Assembly (NCBI RefSeq): GCF_000420625.1
Contig: NZ_ATVH01000014.1
Location: 186,001-250,000 of the forward strand
Reading direction: 5' to 3'
Source of the DNA: Fodinicurvata sediminis DSM 21159
Lineage (GTDB): Bacteria > Pseudomonadota > Alphaproteobacteria > Kiloniellales > DSM-21159
Length of the DNA: 64,000 nucleotides
Below, one piece after another: positions 6,569 to 16,659 of this stretch. Numbering within the stretch: position 1 is the stretch's first letter; every line of letters begins with the position of its first letter. A program made the translations under genes and the position numbers. The notes beneath the pieces were generated by a model. That model had not been told where the DNA came from. It was given only the letters and a program-made list of their open reading frames with translations, and did no database searches.

Positions 6569-8218
6569 TCAGGATTTTTCGATATTCCAGAAGGCTGGGC
6601 TTTGTTGCCCAACAACACCACTTATTCGATTTTCCACGAAGGCCACTGGTCGGAAGAACTGTCCCACGTGGACATAAGGGACAGACTCAAAGAAACGAGT
6701 CTGCAGTTCATCCATGATTGTCTGGCGTTCTTCGACGCCTTGAGCATTGGCATAGGTAACCCGCAACTCTTCGAGTTCTTCGTCGCAGGGCCATCCATAC
6801 CAGTTGTCTCCATCACAACTCGTATCCAGCGGAACATTGGTGATCGGGTTCTGCATCGTGAAACCCGGCCACCACGTAGGGAATATGTGCCAACCGCCCC
6901 GGTCCTCTTCCGGGCCTTCCTTAATGGGGCGGCGTGACGTAAGTGTACTCCAATCCTGAGCTTGTAGCTCCACCTCTACACCTGCACGCCGCAGATGATC
7001 TGCAGCCACAAGGCTCATGAGGTGCATCAGGTTCTGGTCAGTCGGGTCCATGAACACAACGGGACGACCATCGTAGCCTGCTTCTTCGAAGAGCTTACGG
7101 GCCACCTCGAATGGATCTTCACCACCCTCGAATTGCTCGAGACCTGCTTCTGATTCACTTGGAGACCCGCATATGAATGGTGAAAGGCAGACACGCTCAT
7201 AGTCTGGCACACCAATCATCGCGGATAAGTAATCCTGCTGTTGTGTTTGAACCAGATGAAGCAGCGCTTGGCGGGCTTTGGGATGATCAAATGGATGAAT
7301 CAGGGTATTCATCCGCAGCATCCCTTGGTAACCAACAGGATCTATAACCTTAACGGCAATATTCGGATCGCCGTCCAGCTGTGGCAGCATGTCGTGCGAA
7401 GGGAATTCCAACATATCCACCTCGCCTGCCTGAAGGGCTTGTACTGCCGTTCCAGGGTCGGGGATGTAGAGCCATTCAACCCGCTCGACATTTACGACTT
7501 TGCCTCCTGCCAATCCATTGGCAGGCTCCTCTCTTGGGACATAGTCAGGGTTGCGGCGATAAACGACCTTGTGACCCGGATCCCATTCATCATCCACAAA
7601 GATGAAAGGCCCGGAGCCAACCGTCGTTTCAACCTGTTCACTGGCAGCTTTCTGAGCATCTTCCTCGCGCATTATAACGCAGGGAAGAACTGGATTGGCC
7701 AATGCTAAAAGGACCATACCGAATGGCTCAGAGAGCTGGAGTGTGAAGCTTTTCTCATCATCGGCCTCGAGAGAATCAGCACGATCCATCATCAAGCCGC
7801 CTTCAGTTCTCGTTTGAGACCAACGCTTGATTGATGCAACGCAGTCACTCGCAGTGACATCAGTTCCGTCGTGAAACTTCAGCCCCTCTCTCAGCGTGAA
7901 TTGGTAAGTCAATCCATCGTCACTGATTGAGTAATCTCCAATCATCTGAGGCTGTGGCTCCAGCTCATCGTTCATTGCAAACAGCATGTCATAGATCATG
8001 TGCGCGTGATTGGCTGTGATCTGTGCTGTCGTAAAAACAGGGTCTAGAGTACGCAAGTCAGCCTGCGGAACGACGCGCAAAACTCCTTCTGCGGCCTCTG
8101 CTCTTGTCACCGACCATCCCAGGCTTGATAGGAATGCAGCTCCAGCAAGTCCGCTAGCGCCTTTCAGGAAAGTCCTGCGATCTTTATTGATCACTTTTGA
8201 ATAATGTATCCCAGTCAT
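6569..8218 (-). CDS. Peptide-type ABC transporter substrate-binding protein (SBP family 5, DppA-like), Tat-exported
   Basis: This 549-residue family 5 solute-binding protein feeds the DppBCDF-like transporter encoded downstream. The N-terminus has a twin-arginine signal: DRRTFLKG at residues 13-20, a hydrophobic stretch to about residue 35 and a probable cleavage after TRAEA near residue 43. Family features include LDPVFTTAQITANHAHMIYD, the FTLREGLKFHDGTDVTASD segment and the C-terminal QTRFFESVPYVHVGQ region. Tat export suggests the protein folds before export or competes with cytosolic ligand. The gene starts 55 bases after the regulator and is the first structural gene of the operon. Confidence 0.94.
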   Translation of the reverse strand: MTGIHYSKVINKDRRTFLKGASGLAGAAFLSSLGWSVTRAEAAEGVLRVVPQADLRTLDPVFTTAQITANHAHMIYDMLFAMNDELEPQPQMIGDYSISDDGLTYQFTLREGLKFHDGTDVTASDCVASIKRWSQTRTEGGLMMDRADSLEADDEKSFTLQLSEPFGMVLLALANPVLPCVIMREEDAQKAASEQVETTVGSGPFIFVDDEWDPGHKVVYRRNPDYVPREEPANGLAGGKVVNVERVEWLYIPDPGTAVQALQAGEVDMLEFPSHDMLPQLDGDPNIAVKVIDPVGYQGMLRMNTLIHPFDHPKARQALLHLVQTQQQDYLSAMIGVPDYERVCLSPFICGSPSESEAGLEQFEGGEDPFEVARKLFEEAGYDGRPVVFMDPTDQNLMHLMSLVAADHLRRAGVEVELQAQDWSTLTSRRPIKEGPEEDRGGWHIFPTWWPGFTMQNPITNVPLDTSCDGDNWYGWPCDEELEELRVTYANAQGVEERQTIMDELQTRFFESVPYVHVGQFFRPVAFVENRISGVVGQQSPAFWNIEKS

Positions 8219-10163: not shown

Positions 10164-11615
10164 TCATTTCTCTCGGAGAACAACATGACCCGCGCGCGTC
10201 TCCGACATTGATCCGTGATCGAGTGCGATCGAACCGTTGACAAGAACCAGCTCTATCCCAATAGCGGGACTGATAGGCTCCTCGTACGTCGCGGTGTCAG
10301 CGACCCGTTCCGCGTCGAATAGCACTATATCAGCAAATGCGCCTTCGACTATGAGTCCTCGATCATTCAAACCGAACGTACTGGCTGCTAATCCAGTCAT
10401 CTTGTGAACCGCTGTTTCCAAGGGCATCAATTCCAAATCACGTGCGTAGGATCCCAGTACGCGAGGAAAGGTGCCCCAGAGGCGAGGATGAGGATGCGCA
10501 CCGTACGGAATGCCGTCTGAGCCGATCATCGTAGATGGATACGTGATGATGCGTCGGACATCGTCTTCCGACATACAAAAATATATCGCACCGGCGGGAA
10601 TCAGACGCTCGATTGCCTCATCAATCGTGCAATTCAACACTTCAGCGATACGTTCCAGGTCCCATCCATTGAATTCTGGATATGGTTGGGACCAGGTCAC
10701 CAGAACGCGAGTAGATTGCTCGACCATTTCCGGCAACAGTGAACTCGAACCCGCGATGTAGGGATATGCATCCAGGCCAACCGTTTGATGCCGCCGAACT
10801 TCGTCGAACATTTTGAGCGTTCGGGTACTTAAACCATGGTTTTTATGGCCCATGCATTTGTGATGGGACACAACGAGTGGGACACCAGCAGAGGCAGCCG
10901 TCTCAAAAGATTCACGCAGCGATTCCTCGACATGATCATCCTCATTTCGCATGTGGGTCGTGTAAATGCCCCCCGTACCTGCCATCAACTTTAGAAGATG
11001 GAGGACCTCAGTTGCCGGTGCGTGGCGAGCAGGAGGATAATAAAGTCCAGTGCTCAGACCGATAGCACCCGCATCCAGCGCTTCCTGAAGGGAAGCACCC
11101 ATTTCATCTAGCTCTTTGTCTGTGGCAGGTCGATCTAGGGAATCCATTGCCCCCACACGTAATGTCGAATGCCCTACCAGAGGGGCTACGTTTACCGCTG
11201 GGGGTGCATTTTGCAGGGACGCGATATAGTCAGAAAACCTCGGATACTGATAGATGCTTTCGTCGCCGATAACATTTAGGGGGGGAGGTACAGGCCCATC
11301 CGGTTGGAGTGGAGCAAGGCTGATGCCGCAATTACCAACAATAACGGTTGTCACGCCCTGAGTAATTTTTGACGCCATCGGGTTTTGAGACAAAACTTGC
11401 GCATCATCGTGCGTGTGAACGTCTATGAACCCAGGGGCGAGCGCCAACCCACCACCTTCGATCACGGCATTAGCGGAGCTTCGTTCGAGCGATCCTATTG
11501 CGGAGATCCGATCCCCTTTAACGGCCACGTCCCCGTGACGTTCCTCACCCCCCGTGCCGTCGAAGATACGGACGTCTTTAATGATAAGATCGTGGTGCGT
11601 GCTATGGGTATTCAT
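10164..11615 (-). CDS. N-acyl-D-amino-acid deacylase (D-aminoacylase), amidohydrolase superfamily
   Basis: This 483-residue zinc amidohydrolase matches the D-aminoacylase family. Features are APGFIDVHTHDD with the HTH pair at residues 67-69, VGNCGISLAPL around 93-103 with the family-specific metal-ligand Cys96, TTHMRNED, VVSHHKCMG, and a late SDG (IGSDGIPYGAHPHPR) carrying the catalytic Asp. It hydrolyses N-acyl-D-amino acids to the D-amino acid and a carboxylate. It is transcribed in the same direction as the importer operon but about 1 kb upstream, with an IS66 remnant in between, so it probably has its own promoter. Function is consistent with the operon's theme of N-substituted amino compounds. 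Confidence 0.92.
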   Translation of the reverse strand: MNTHSTHHDLIIKDVRIFDGTGGEERHGDVAVKGDRISAIGSLERSSANAVIEGGGLALAPGFIDVHTHDDAQVLSQNPMASKITQGVTTVIVGNCGISLAPLQPDGPVPPPLNVIGDESIYQYPRFSDYIASLQNAPPAVNVAPLVGHSTLRVGAMDSLDRPATDKELDEMGASLQEALDAGAIGLSTGLYYPPARHAPATEVLHLLKLMAGTGGIYTTHMRNEDDHVEESLRESFETAASAGVPLVVSHHKCMGHKNHGLSTRTLKMFDEVRRHQTVGLDAYPYIAGSSSLLPEMVEQSTRVLVTWSQPYPEFNGWDLERIAEVLNCTIDEAIERLIPAGAIYFCMSEDDVRRIITYPSTMIGSDGIPYGAHPHPRLWGTFPRVLGSYARDLELMPLETAVHKMTGLAASTFGLNDRGLIVEGAFADIVLFDAERVADTATYEEPISPAIGIELVLVNGSIALDHGSMSETRAGHVVLREK

Positions 11616-11859: not shown

Positions 11860-12390
11860 ATGCCGAGGGGGCCTATCGCCCTGAAGCTGACAGCAGGACA
11901 GGCGCATGACGGCAAGGCCCATGATGGCATGGAGATTCGTCAGCTTGTCGGGGAAGGGTACGCTTGGGCCAACATTCCGGCCCGCAAGAATCGGAAAGAG
12001 GCCTTTGCCTTCTCTGGCTTCATCTACCTCTATCGTAACCTAGTCGAGCGCTTCATCGAGGTTTACAATAACGAGCGGCCCCACCAGGCCCTATCAGGCG
12101 CTTATCCAGGGGAAATCTATACACCCTCACCGCGCGTCTACGAGCCGCCGCGCGAGCCGGACTATCCCTTCCATGATCGCATTGTGAGAGTAACCCGCTG
12201 CGGGCGCATCTGTGTCGGAAAACGCAAGATCAATCTCAGCACCGTCTTCGCCGGGCAAACCCTCGGCATCCGCGAGGTCGACGATCAAATCTGGCTGGTC
12301 AGCTTCATGCACTATGATCTAGGATTCTTCGACAAGGAGACGGACCGTGTCGAACCCGGTCCCAATCCATTCGCCCCGGAGAAACTGTAA
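11860..12390 (+). pseudogene. Chimeric transposase remnant: IS5-like fragment fused in frame to the C-terminus of an IS481-family transposase
   Basis: The 176-codon frame has two origins. Residues 1-65 (ALKLTAGQAHDGKAHDG, then WANIPARKNRKEAFAF and YRNLVERF) are pieces of an IS5/IS427-type transposase with an internal deletion and no DDE catalytic core. From about residue 66 (codons near 12055) the text becomes EVYNNERPHQALSGAYPGE and continues to VEPGPNPFAPEKL, the conserved tail of IS481-family integrase-type transposases. The IS481 part lacks the catalytic DDE domain as well. The frame is open but cannot encode an active enzyme. Its end is followed at once by IS481-type end repeats at 12386-12428. 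Confidence 0.8.
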
Positions 12391-12445: not shown

Positions 12446-12522
12446 TGGTGACCCCGGCAGGATTCGAACCTGCGACCCCAGGATTAGGAATCCTGTGCTC
12501 TATCCGGCTGAGCTACGGGGCC
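12446..12522 (-). tRNA. tRNA-Arg(CCT)
   Basis: This 77-nt cloverleaf on the minus strand begins GGCCCCGTAGCTC and ends with an encoded CCA at 12446-12448. The acceptor stem is GGCCCCG with CGGGGTC. The D arm is GCTCAGCCGGATAGAGC, the anticodon arm CAGGATTCCTAATCCTG gives anticodon CCT, and the T arm is GCAGGTTCGAATCCTGC. Its 3' end faces the AT-rich accessory region to the left, the usual polarity for a tRNA-linked integration site. Confidence 0.97.
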
Positions 12523-13548: not shown

Positions 13549-13696
13549 CGCTTCGTTGACTGTTCAAAAAATCCGGCCGCCAGGAGCCAACCGGCACACG
13601 GGCAACTTATAACGCAGCTTAAGGCCTTGAACAGCGTCAGCCATGCTTATAACGGAACCGAAGTTTCGTTTCTTGTTGCGCGCATCTGGCTCAGTC

Positions 13697-15721
13697 TTAG
13701 GAAAGTGCGGGATTCTCAAACCAGACAACACCCAGTCCACGCTGCAGAAGGCTCGCTCCCTCCTCGGCAGCGAGGACATCCTTGTCGCCATCTGCATCCA
13801 TGTCCACAGAGCGCAATTCCCTGTAATCCCCATCCGCCAGGTCTGCCGTGATGGCCGTTCGTGACCAGTGCTGAAAGGTGCTGGCATCATGCTCCGTTAA
13901 TGAAAGAGCCTGCGAGCTGCCGGCCACAATCTCTCCAACGCCGTGGCCATTCAGATCACCACAGATCAGCAGTTTAGGTGCAACCGGAAGGATTGGTGTT
14001 TTCCACTCTCGTACAGGAGTCATGGAGCGCCGGTTCTCCGCACCACCATTGCCCTGTTCGTGATACTGAACCGCCGCTCCGGAAAAGCTGTTGGCGGCTT
14101 CGTTCACCGCAAACACGCCGCTTGTGCCATCACCGTCAATATCACAGAGAGTGAAGATCGATACCCTGCGGTCCATTCCCCGAAACGCCCAGGCGCCATC
14201 ACTTGCCTCGTCGGGATTCTCCAACCAGCCAAGGTGTCCCTGTTGGGTCAGGAGAAGATCCTCCTCTCCATCACTGTCCATGTCATGAAGTTTGATATCT
14301 CGAACCGAGCCGCCAGGTACAGGTTGCGACCAATGACTCTCCTCGCGAACGGAAATGGCCGGTGGCCAAGAAATCTCTGCCGTCCAAATCCCATCCTCAT
14401 GGCCTACAAAGACCATGGAAGTTCCACGTTGGCGGCCTGGAACATTTAGAACCGTATTGTAGTCGCCAGAGAAAAAACCCGTCAGTCTTTCCGAAGTCCA
14501 GGAGCCTGCTTCGAAAGGATTCTGTCCTTGCTCGAGGAAATGCAGGGTTACCTGCATACCCGGAATGCCCACGGCCGTCAGGATACTCTCCTTGCTCCCG
14601 TCTCTGTCTAAGTCCGCAAAGGAAACATCCTCAAGGCCCATATAGACCAGCCCTTCCGCGATATCGATTTTCTTCCAGGTCTGAGTCCCGTCACCCGCAC
14701 CAAGATTCTCGTAAAGACGAACAAGTCCGGACTGCTGCCATCCAGCCACAAGATCCTGGTCCCCATCACTGTCCAGGTCCGCCACGTCCAGCGAATCAGC
14801 TCCGTTTGCCGCGGAATCGACGACATGCATGTCCCAGTGCTCTGCGGCCTGGGCCTGCTTGGCCAAAAACGTTCCGTTATGATCCGGAATCCCGATACGA
14901 ACGACGGTCACCCCCGTGACCAGGGCTATCGTTGCCGCAGCCGCGCCAACCCCAACACGCTGCCATCCGTGCAGTGCGATGCCCGGCATTTCGTCTTCCC
15001 CGGGCTCCGGACCCTCGACAAAAACCTCAGGCCCCATGGGAGGATGAGACCGTTCCTCGGCAGGTCCCAGAAGCCACTCCTCTGGAATGGGCTGCACATT
15101 ATCGGTCCTGCAGCGACGATAGATATAGAGCTTCTTGACCCCAGGGCTCTTGACGATCGAGTCAAGCTGAAAGCCAGCCCGCTCGATCAATGGAAAAACT
15201 TCAGAAGCAGCTGCTTTAGGGGCCCGAAAGACGAAATAGTATCCCGTCCTTTGCAGCGCCTTGTAGAGAACAAGTCGCCGTATTTCTTCATCCAGGTGCT
15301 GGTAGACCCCCAAGCAGAGCACAACGTCATAGACTGACTCGAAAATTTTTTCATCGTCGAGACAAGTCGGATCATTCAATTCCACTGCATCAAAACGCAC
15401 ACGATTGCTTCTCACCAGTTCTCGCGCCGAGGCAATCCTCTTGGCACTGTGATCCACGCCATGGATCGCACTAGCCCCGCTTTCCAGAAACGGCGGCAAC
15501 ATAAGGCCCTCGGCACAGCCCATATCCAGGATCGTGCTGCCATGTGCAATTGGAACTACAGCCTTCAGGGCAGCCCTCCTGTGTGCCGCGCTGGCCTTTC
15601 CGCTCAGACCGCTCCGGCCATCACCGTAGTAGTCTTTGTGAAATGCGGAATGCCAGTGTGCTTGCTTGAGATTCGCTACGGTGGACAGCGAACGCCGGAC
15701 CGTTTTTCTCAAAACTTTCAA
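13697..15721 (-). CDS. SAM-dependent methyltransferase fused through one TM helix to an FG-GAP/VCBS-repeat domain
   Basis: This 674-residue protein has three parts. Residues about 40-205 form a class I methyltransferase with motif I ILDMGCAEG at 64-72, an acidic end of strand 2 (HGVD) and VLCLGVYQHL at 135-143. A single hydrophobic helix follows at about 255-278 after a Pro/Glu-rich linker. Residues about 290-674 are a repeat domain with calcium-type loops DLDSDGDQD (315), DLDRDGSKE (370), DMDSDGEED (480), DIDGDGTSG (527), DLNGHGVGE (589) and DMDADGDKD (640), as in FG-GAP beta-propellers. The expected topology is a cytoplasmic methyltransferase and a periplasmic propeller. I know of no named family with this arrangement; substrate and ligand are unknown. 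One uninterrupted frame argues against a sequencing artefact. Confidence 0.85.
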   Translation of the reverse strand: MKVLRKTVRRSLSTVANLKQAHWHSAFHKDYYGDGRSGLSGKASAAHRRAALKAVVPIAHGSTILDMGCAEGLMLPPFLESGASAIHGVDHSAKRIASARELVRSNRVRFDAVELNDPTCLDDEKIFESVYDVVLCLGVYQHLDEEIRRLVLYKALQRTGYYFVFRAPKAAASEVFPLIERAGFQLDSIVKSPGVKKLYIYRRCRTDNVQPIPEEWLLGPAEERSHPPMGPEVFVEGPEPGEDEMPGIALHGWQRVGVGAAAATIALVTGVTVVRIGIPDHNGTFLAKQAQAAEHWDMHVVDSAANGADSLDVADLDSDGDQDLVAGWQQSGLVRLYENLGAGDGTQTWKKIDIAEGLVYMGLEDVSFADLDRDGSKESILTAVGIPGMQVTLHFLEQGQNPFEAGSWTSERLTGFFSGDYNTVLNVPGRQRGTSMVFVGHEDGIWTAEISWPPAISVREESHWSQPVPGGSVRDIKLHDMDSDGEEDLLLTQQGHLGWLENPDEASDGAWAFRGMDRRVSIFTLCDIDGDGTSGVFAVNEAANSFSGAAVQYHEQGNGGAENRRSMTPVREWKTPILPVAPKLLICGDLNGHGVGEIVAGSSQALSLTEHDASTFQHWSRTAITADLADGDYRELRSVDMDADGDKDVLAAEEGASLLQRGLGVVWFENPALS

Positions 15722-15846
15722 TCCCTTAAATCAATTGAACGGGCACAGCCTGATATCTTCCCAAATCATGAATTTCCGGCTGTATATCGCGGGCGACAGA
15801 CCACGCTCAGGAAATCCCTACATATGATCGGGGCAAAGGTTGTACA

Positions 15847-16659
15847 ATGAAGTCGCTTACACGCATTCACGGATACGAAATGGTCTTTCCATACGTCTTC
15901 TACAGCTTCCTGGTCCTCCTGTTACTGGCAACCACCACCTTGCAAGCCGGAACATGGGAGGCCCTTGCTGAGACCAGAACAAAGATGCAAAGCGACTTCA
16001 CGCTCGAACTTGCCTCCGGTGACAGCGTGCTTCTGGCCGGGGTGTTACCGCCGCAGACAGTACTTGAACCTGGAGCGGAGATGACAGCCTTGCAGGAGGA
16101 AGCACTGGCCTTTCTCAGCAGGGCAACGAAGGGCAAGTCCCTTAACTTGATTTCCACAGAAATTACCCATGACCGGCACGGTCGACGCCTTGCCCAGGTC
16201 TTCCAGGCTGGTACCCCGGAACTCTGGCTCCAGGGCCATCTTGTCCGCGAAGGACTAGCCATCGTCCACGGAGGCCCAGCTCGTCGCACTATGCAGACAG
16301 ACCTGCTGGCCCTGGAGAACCAGGCCCGGCTTGCGAAGCGCGGTCTGTGGCGTCTTGCAGAATTGCAACCCCTATCTCCTCATCGCGCCAATGAAGCCAT
16401 CGGCCGCTGGCGCCTGATTGAAGGACAAGTTCAGGACACGGCGGCAATCCGTGGACGCGGCTATATCAATTTCGGTGCGGATTGGCGCGAGGACTTCACG
16501 ATCTACCTCAATCCTGAGAGACTCGCAGAGTTCGAAGAGACAAGCGGACCGCTGGACAGGCTCCAGGGACGCCGGCTTCGCGTGCGGGGCTGGCTTGTTT
16601 CCTACAATGGGCCCATGATCGAGCTGAGTTATCCCGAACAGATCGAGGTACTGGAATGA
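15847..16659 (+). CDS. Exported SNase-like (thermonuclease-fold) protein
   Basis: This 270-residue protein has an N-terminal hydrophobic segment (residues about 13-33) acting as a signal peptide or anchor, followed by a staphylococcal-nuclease-like beta-barrel domain. The family signs are LASGDSVLLAGVLPPQT, DRHGRRLAQVF, LVREGLAIVHGGP and ENQARLAKRGLWRL, the last being the usual end of the SNase domain. A second small beta-rich portion (IEGQVQDTAAIRGRGYINFGADWREDF) follows, as in alphaproteobacterial SNase-like proteins of unproven nuclease activity. The stop overlaps the start of the M48 protease gene by 4 bases, so the two are translationally coupled. Confidence 0.8.
   Translation: MKSLTRIHGYEMVFPYVFYSFLVLLLLATTTLQAGTWEALAETRTKMQSDFTLELASGDSVLLAGVLPPQTVLEPGAEMTALQEEALAFLSRATKGKSLNLISTEITHDRHGRRLAQVFQAGTPELWLQGHLVREGLAIVHGGPARRTMQTDLLALENQARLAKRGLWRLAELQPLSPHRANEAIGRWRLIEGQVQDTAAIRGRGYINFGADWREDFTIYLNPERLAEFEETSGPLDRLQGRRLRVRGWLVSYNGPMIELSYPEQIEVLE

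Follow-up and report, generated by a model that had tools for sequence, protein, structure and literature searches.

The fusion gene and its reading frame

The window, that is, the whole analysed stretch of 64,000 nucleotides of the Fodinicurvata sediminis genome, contains on the reverse strand a single open frame of 674 codons and a stop (13697..15721, (-)), which runs uninterrupted as the sequence-only reading had reported. The predicted product includes, in this order, a methyltransferase module, a hydrophobic segment and FG-GAP repeats; this layout, first proposed from the letters of the sequence, was confirmed by Pfam and hydropathy analysis. The neighbours of the gene encode a hydrolase and a nuclease-like (SNase) protein, and there is no evident partner gene among them.

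Along 13697-15721 (-), the fusion frame has no stops, compared with 23 and 28 in the other two frames of the same strand. Codon-usage scoring, with a training set of 27 window ORFs chosen by length, gave 0.035 bits per codon for the methyltransferase part (a weak value), 0.113 for the linker, 0.085 for the hydrophobic stretch and 0.144 for the propeller. The scores of the same-strand alternative frames were negative in every segment, and one of the frames of the opposite strand was slightly positive in a single segment (0.057, the hydrophobic stretch). Since codon usage favours the fusion frame, and not the alternatives, through all four segments, a join created by a frameshift in the sequence is unlikely. 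Separate genes elsewhere, joined here only by a frameshift or an assembly error, had been named earlier as a finding that would refute the fusion reading. Separate genes were indeed found elsewhere, but the stop counts and the codon signal led us to reject a frameshifted or pseudogene join.

The listed start codon, TTG 15721, has the sequence AAGGGA directly against it, and at the usual distance nothing pairs usefully (+0.6). TTG 15712, located 9 bases further in, is better placed (pairing -3.8) and is probably the real start, giving a protein of 671 aa. An in-frame ATG at 14987..14989 (-) is preceded by moderate Shine-Dalgarno-like pairing (-5.8) and may be an internal start of a 430-aa product, an N-anchored propeller alone. 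The join might be accidental and lack a joint function: the frame of the methyltransferase would run on into a propeller gene, the propeller would be made alone, as a membrane-anchored protein, from ATG 14989, and the full-length protein would be a by-product. We regard this explanation as unlikely but worth serious weight. The stronger pairing at the ATG than at TTG 15712 is consistent with it, as are a terminator-like hairpin at 15051-15030 (-) inside the linker, the end of a stand-alone methyltransferase relative at the point where the linker starts, and the finding of the joined form in one genome only. However, many other in-frame codons have pairing equal to or better than that of ATG 14989, and the linker and the hydrophobic stretch retain coding signal. 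The hairpin carries little meaning because the region contains 7 such sites, compared with 2.8 (sd 1.8) in shuffled sequences, four others falling inside the propeller or close to the hydrophobic segment.

The methyltransferase module

The predicted class I SAM methyltransferase module (15116..15712, (-), residues 4-202) was delimited by Pfam and alignment. The class I identity assigned in the sequence-only reading was supported by matches to Methyltransf_12 (39.1 bits, cut-off 30) and Methyltransf_25 (34.5 bits, cut-off 27), both above the curated cut-offs. The alignment with a stand-alone homologue of genome G006 revealed LDMGCAEG, HGVD and YQHLD in identical or closely similar forms; we take these to be class I SAM methyltransferase motifs, and SAM binding and catalysis are predicted at the level of sequence. 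None of the 15 NCBIfam families listed reached its equivalog cut-off, all scores being far below (UbiG, 31.8 vs 102.95), and no named NCBIfam equivalog includes this methyltransferase. A defence role as the MADS protein Mad2 (PADLOC) was considered and rejected: the match, to a methyltransferase model, covers only part of the profile (32.2 bits; positions 264-382 of 492), and the two neighbours of the fusion gene that were scanned match no Mads model.

The closest relative is the stand-alone methyltransferase of G006, a member of the same family (L043:9620-10219, 199 aa), with 43% identity over 177 residues. Besides the motifs, it shares with the fusion protein the N-terminal DYY..GL.GK block. 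It ends at the domain end, where the linker of the fusion protein starts, and has no linker, membrane stretch or propeller; an FG-GAP_3 search of the G006 genome was negative at 0.001. The gene adjoins tRNA-Glu, and no glycan genes were seen by eye among the surrounding ORFs. Within the own genome, the next match to the methyltransferase has only 31% identity (4.2e-6), so that a close duplicate is lacking.

Scans with a two-row methyltransferase profile, in which at most 7-10 candidates were scored per genome, found few further relatives. Among the candidates scored, two were positive in 385 class genomes at 1e-12 (the own genome and G006) and three in 284 phylum genomes at 1e-10 (the own genome, G452 and G478). 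The second-best relative (7.7e-17) forms the C-terminal end of a larger glycosyltransferase protein of G452 (L087:6744-8921), where it is fused to the glycosyltransferase and to another methyltransferase domain, with no propeller. The neighbouring genes encode a sulfotransferase, flagellin, a FleQ-type regulator and further glycosyltransferases. The third relative, of G478, lies among genes for glycosyltransferases, a sulfotransferase and an epimerase, and is a generic match of 42 bits.

The propeller and its relatives

The putative FG-GAP propeller (13700..14836, (-), residues 296-674) was delimited by Pfam and repeat comparison. FG-GAP_3 scored 60.6 against a cut-off of 26.9, with four stretches matched; at 0.001, the own genome has three FG-GAP_3 matches, all within the fusion ORF. 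Seven blades can be drawn by eye, each led by a Trp (residues 296, 349, 408, 464, 511, 573 and 619); five further Trp are present in the region, and the Trp-led pattern is thus chosen rather than forced. The mean blade-to-blade score was 32.2; 300 shuffles averaged 21.5 (sd 0.9) and never exceeded 25.0. We read the C-terminal part as one seven-bladed propeller. The two AlphaFold2 models had a pLDDT (34.1 with 4 alignment rows and 39.2 with 2 rows) too low to use.

All six Asp-rich loops noticed earlier are present (residues 315, 370, 480, 527, 589 and 640), distributed over six blades, with none in blade 3. Of these loops, described earlier as calcium-type, only those at 315, 480 and 640 have the nine-residue form DxDxDGxxD in full. 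Loops of this full form are known to bind calcium.

Stand-alone propellers occur elsewhere. The protein at L025, of Planctomycetota, is an FG-GAP propeller of 402 aa with 23% identity, and L009, in genome G046 of the same order, has seven loops and 30% identity; its frame is open for 404 codons and gives about 387 aa if counted from the first Met. Each consists of a single propeller with WFENP near the end, as in the fusion protein, but differs from it in having a signal-like start (by eye) and no enzyme. Several of the frames read in these comparisons are cut by the ends of their loci. A search with the propeller alone in 385 class genomes at 1e-6 found only the own genome.

The linker, the hydrophobic stretch and topology

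The two modules are connected by a Pro/Glu-rich linker (14957..15115, (-), residues 203-255), which is not found in the stand-alone G006 methyltransferase, followed by the hydrophobic stretch VGVGAAAATIALVTGVTVV (14900..14956, (-), residues 256-274), a candidate signal anchor or membrane helix. The Kyte-Doolittle mean of the stretch is 2.06 over 19 residues; it is the sole strong peak, the next one reaching 1.08. Five of 27 other window proteins reach 2.06, four of these five having 6-10 peaks. Hydropathy alone is no proof of a membrane helix because 176 of 2000 shuffles of the fusion protein also reach 2.05, and the summed Hessa value of +1.32 corresponds to moderate hydrophobicity. The 20 residues before the stretch contain one K+R and five D+E, and those after it two of each kind; the flanking charges do not favour N-in, the expected orientation. 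Of the single membrane helix claimed by the sequence-only reading, one candidate segment has been retained; a helix is plausible, and its orientation lacks charge support.

The moderate hydropathy, the low pLDDT of the models and the occurrence in one genome only would also agree with an error in the join or in the membrane reading, that is, with an assembly artefact or a wholly cytoplasmic protein. This seems very improbable, as the frame is open over 2 kb with coding signal throughout, GC3 is alike in the methyltransferase and the propeller (0.58 and 0.576), the join sits well inside a 551-kb contig, and FG-GAP relatives have starts resembling export signals (by eye).

Search for the joined architecture

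Besides the window, no match spanning both halves was found in the 61 genomes of the own order, nor in samples of 385 class and 398 phylum genomes, where the best 2-3 candidates per genome were considered; the two samples overlap and all belong to one phylum. Phages, plasmids and viral contigs yielded no spanning matches either. The 50,697 phage records gave no match with the whole protein (1e-5) or with either half (0.001), and phage cargo was rejected on this ground. A plasmid origin was rejected likewise: the whole protein had one plasmid match, restricted to the methyltransferase, and the propeller had none. An exact-peptide scan of named genomes, the sole genome scan extending outside the phylum, returned six loci, each with a match confined to the propeller part. 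Fifty loci from these searches were read in six frames, and none had at least two Asp loops and methyltransferase motif I in one frame; the patterns are crude and some frames are cut by locus ends, and the window protein passes this test. No protein combining a methyltransferase with FG-GAP was found in the open-licence literature at the level of titles and the beginnings of abstracts. In the genomes, phages, plasmids and viral contigs searched, the idea of a family of sensor-enzyme proteins was not borne out: the architecture was found in the own genome only, the halves are separate elsewhere, and the gene is absent from the matching place in the ten family relatives described below.

Origin of the fusion gene

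Comparison with genome G001 of the same genus delineated a non-aligning tract at 13642..16395, containing weak pieces of similarity only; both the fusion gene and the diverged 5' portion of the SNase gene lie within it. In G001, this tract corresponds to less than 0.6 kb, and the hydrolase and SNase genes are adjacent. Both flanking genes were matched in 11 of the 12 family genomes (the own genome included) and neither in G008. In all ten other genomes possessing both, the matches are separated by 64-843 bases, compared with 2301 in the window. When the 10 hydrolase and 10 SNase loci of these relatives were searched over their entire length, nothing matched the fusion protein at 0.001. Because the flanking genes lie close together without the fusion gene in 10 of 10 relatives, a species-level gain of the gene, judged from these comparisons, is the best reading.

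The SNase-like gene (15847-16659) has a 5' part strongly diverged from the G001 copy. The proteins share 62.5% identity over 240 residues, and a block of 301 bases over the 3' end shows 89% DNA identity. The pattern is a sign of a recombination edge near 16396, and the 5' divergence suggests that the fusion gene arrived as part of a recombined tract. No flanking repeats of the kind expected at mobile-element ends were seen around the tract.

The GC3 values are 0.843 for the hydrolase gene, 0.764 for the M48 protease gene and 0.635 for the SNase gene, and 0.516 and 0.517 for the genes at 6569-8218 and 10164-11615. The latter gene is part of a block that G001 also has, at 94% identity; low GC3 is therefore weak evidence of foreign origin.

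The window also includes an alphaproteobacterial tmRNA. A tRNA-Arg(CCT) gene (12446-12522) adjoins transposase-like remains (11860-12390), recognised by eye, with no Pfam match at 1e-4; G001 also has tRNA-Arg(CCT) and a similar ORF there.

Possible function and likeness to known systems

Judging by its sequence, the gene looks like a genuine and recent fusion, found in one genome only, and a membrane-enzyme architecture is plausible for its product. The reading that we favour tentatively, with confidence slightly short of even, is a recent species-level chimera, whose product would be a methyltransferase tethered to the inner membrane, with its propeller in the periplasm, acting perhaps on envelope glycan precursors. 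A stand-alone cytoplasmic methyltransferase would have been joined to an exported seven-bladed FG-GAP propeller via the linker and an uncleaved signal anchor. The protein would span the inner membrane, its methyltransferase facing the cytoplasm, the site of SAM, and its propeller facing the periplasm. The signal-like starts of the L025 and L009 propellers and the N-terminal hydrophobic stretch of the viral L069 protein (all by eye) agree with this. Most likely, the propeller would hold the enzyme at an envelope partner, and the enzyme would methylate a membrane-near precursor. The best guess for the substrate is a surface glycan, because the G452 and G478 relatives lie among glycosyltransferase genes. 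Starting from the observed single frame, domains and hydrophobic stretch, the missing counterpart in relatives and the separate parts elsewhere, we infer the topology, the tethering and the glycan substrate. Against the favoured reading, the searches described turned up no second fused gene as a sign of selection for this architecture, the flanking charges do not favour N-in, the closest methyltransferase relative (G006) shows no glycan genes around it by eye, and the G478 match is generic.

A layout of this type is known from a mycobacterial kinase, Mbk, which is the same protein as PknD. Mbk consists of an N-terminal kinase, a transmembrane region and C-terminal extracellular NHL repeats (PMC1262709), and the sensor of PknD is a six-bladed propeller (PMC3322341). 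A receptor role has been suggested for this kinase (PMC1262709, PMC3322341). The fusion protein would share with PknD/Mbk the order of an enzyme, a membrane region and a beta-propeller outside, a likeness of layout only: PknD/Mbk has a Ser/Thr kinase and a six-bladed NHL propeller, in contrast to the methyltransferase and FG-GAP repeats described here. Pfam found no kinase or NHL match in the fusion protein. The PknD-like domain order is present, the helix is plausible, and its orientation lacks support from charges.

The same layout, together with the three full Asp loops, would agree with a true sensor-enzyme, in which the propeller would bind a ligand outside the cytoplasm, or calcium, and so alter methylation inside the cell in the manner of PknD. 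This appears improbable: no recurrence and no evident partner gene were found, and the long linker between the enzyme and the membrane would be poorly suited to one-helix signalling. The family and sensor readings do not follow from what was observed. Still a little less probable is the bolder version, namely the first transmembrane receptor with SAM-dependent methylation as its output, caught soon after fusion, in which the seven-bladed propeller would sense an envelope or calcium-bound ligand and one helix would control or place the methyltransferase.

The favoured chimera is probably a young invention: its halves occur separately elsewhere, and the joined form was not found elsewhere in the searches made (the order, the class and phylum samples, phages, plasmids and viral contigs). 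If the protein is made whole, a SAM methyltransferase would enter the enzyme-membrane-propeller layout known from kinases, and the gene would represent a datable new membrane enzyme formed by gene fusion, as the site in G001 lacks the gene. An accidental join would illustrate how chimeras of this kind begin.

Other composite proteins with related parts

Six scans of viral contigs returned one methyltransferase relative (L066) and one propeller relative (L069), the other four giving nothing new. The L066 protein (L066:5443-6492) joins an N-terminus that resembles a P-loop kinase (by eye) to a methyltransferase (Pfam). At L069:2282-4114, a protein of 610 aa carries an N-terminal hydrophobic stretch followed by an FG-GAP-like propeller (both by eye); segments of it match tail-fibre and baseplate families, and the adjoining ORF is baseplate-like by eye. 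Another join of an enzyme with FG-GAP repeats was observed within the family at L056 (G007:C4 around 796225), where the repeats are in frame with a haem peroxidase-like part, recognised by eye from a CxxCH motif.
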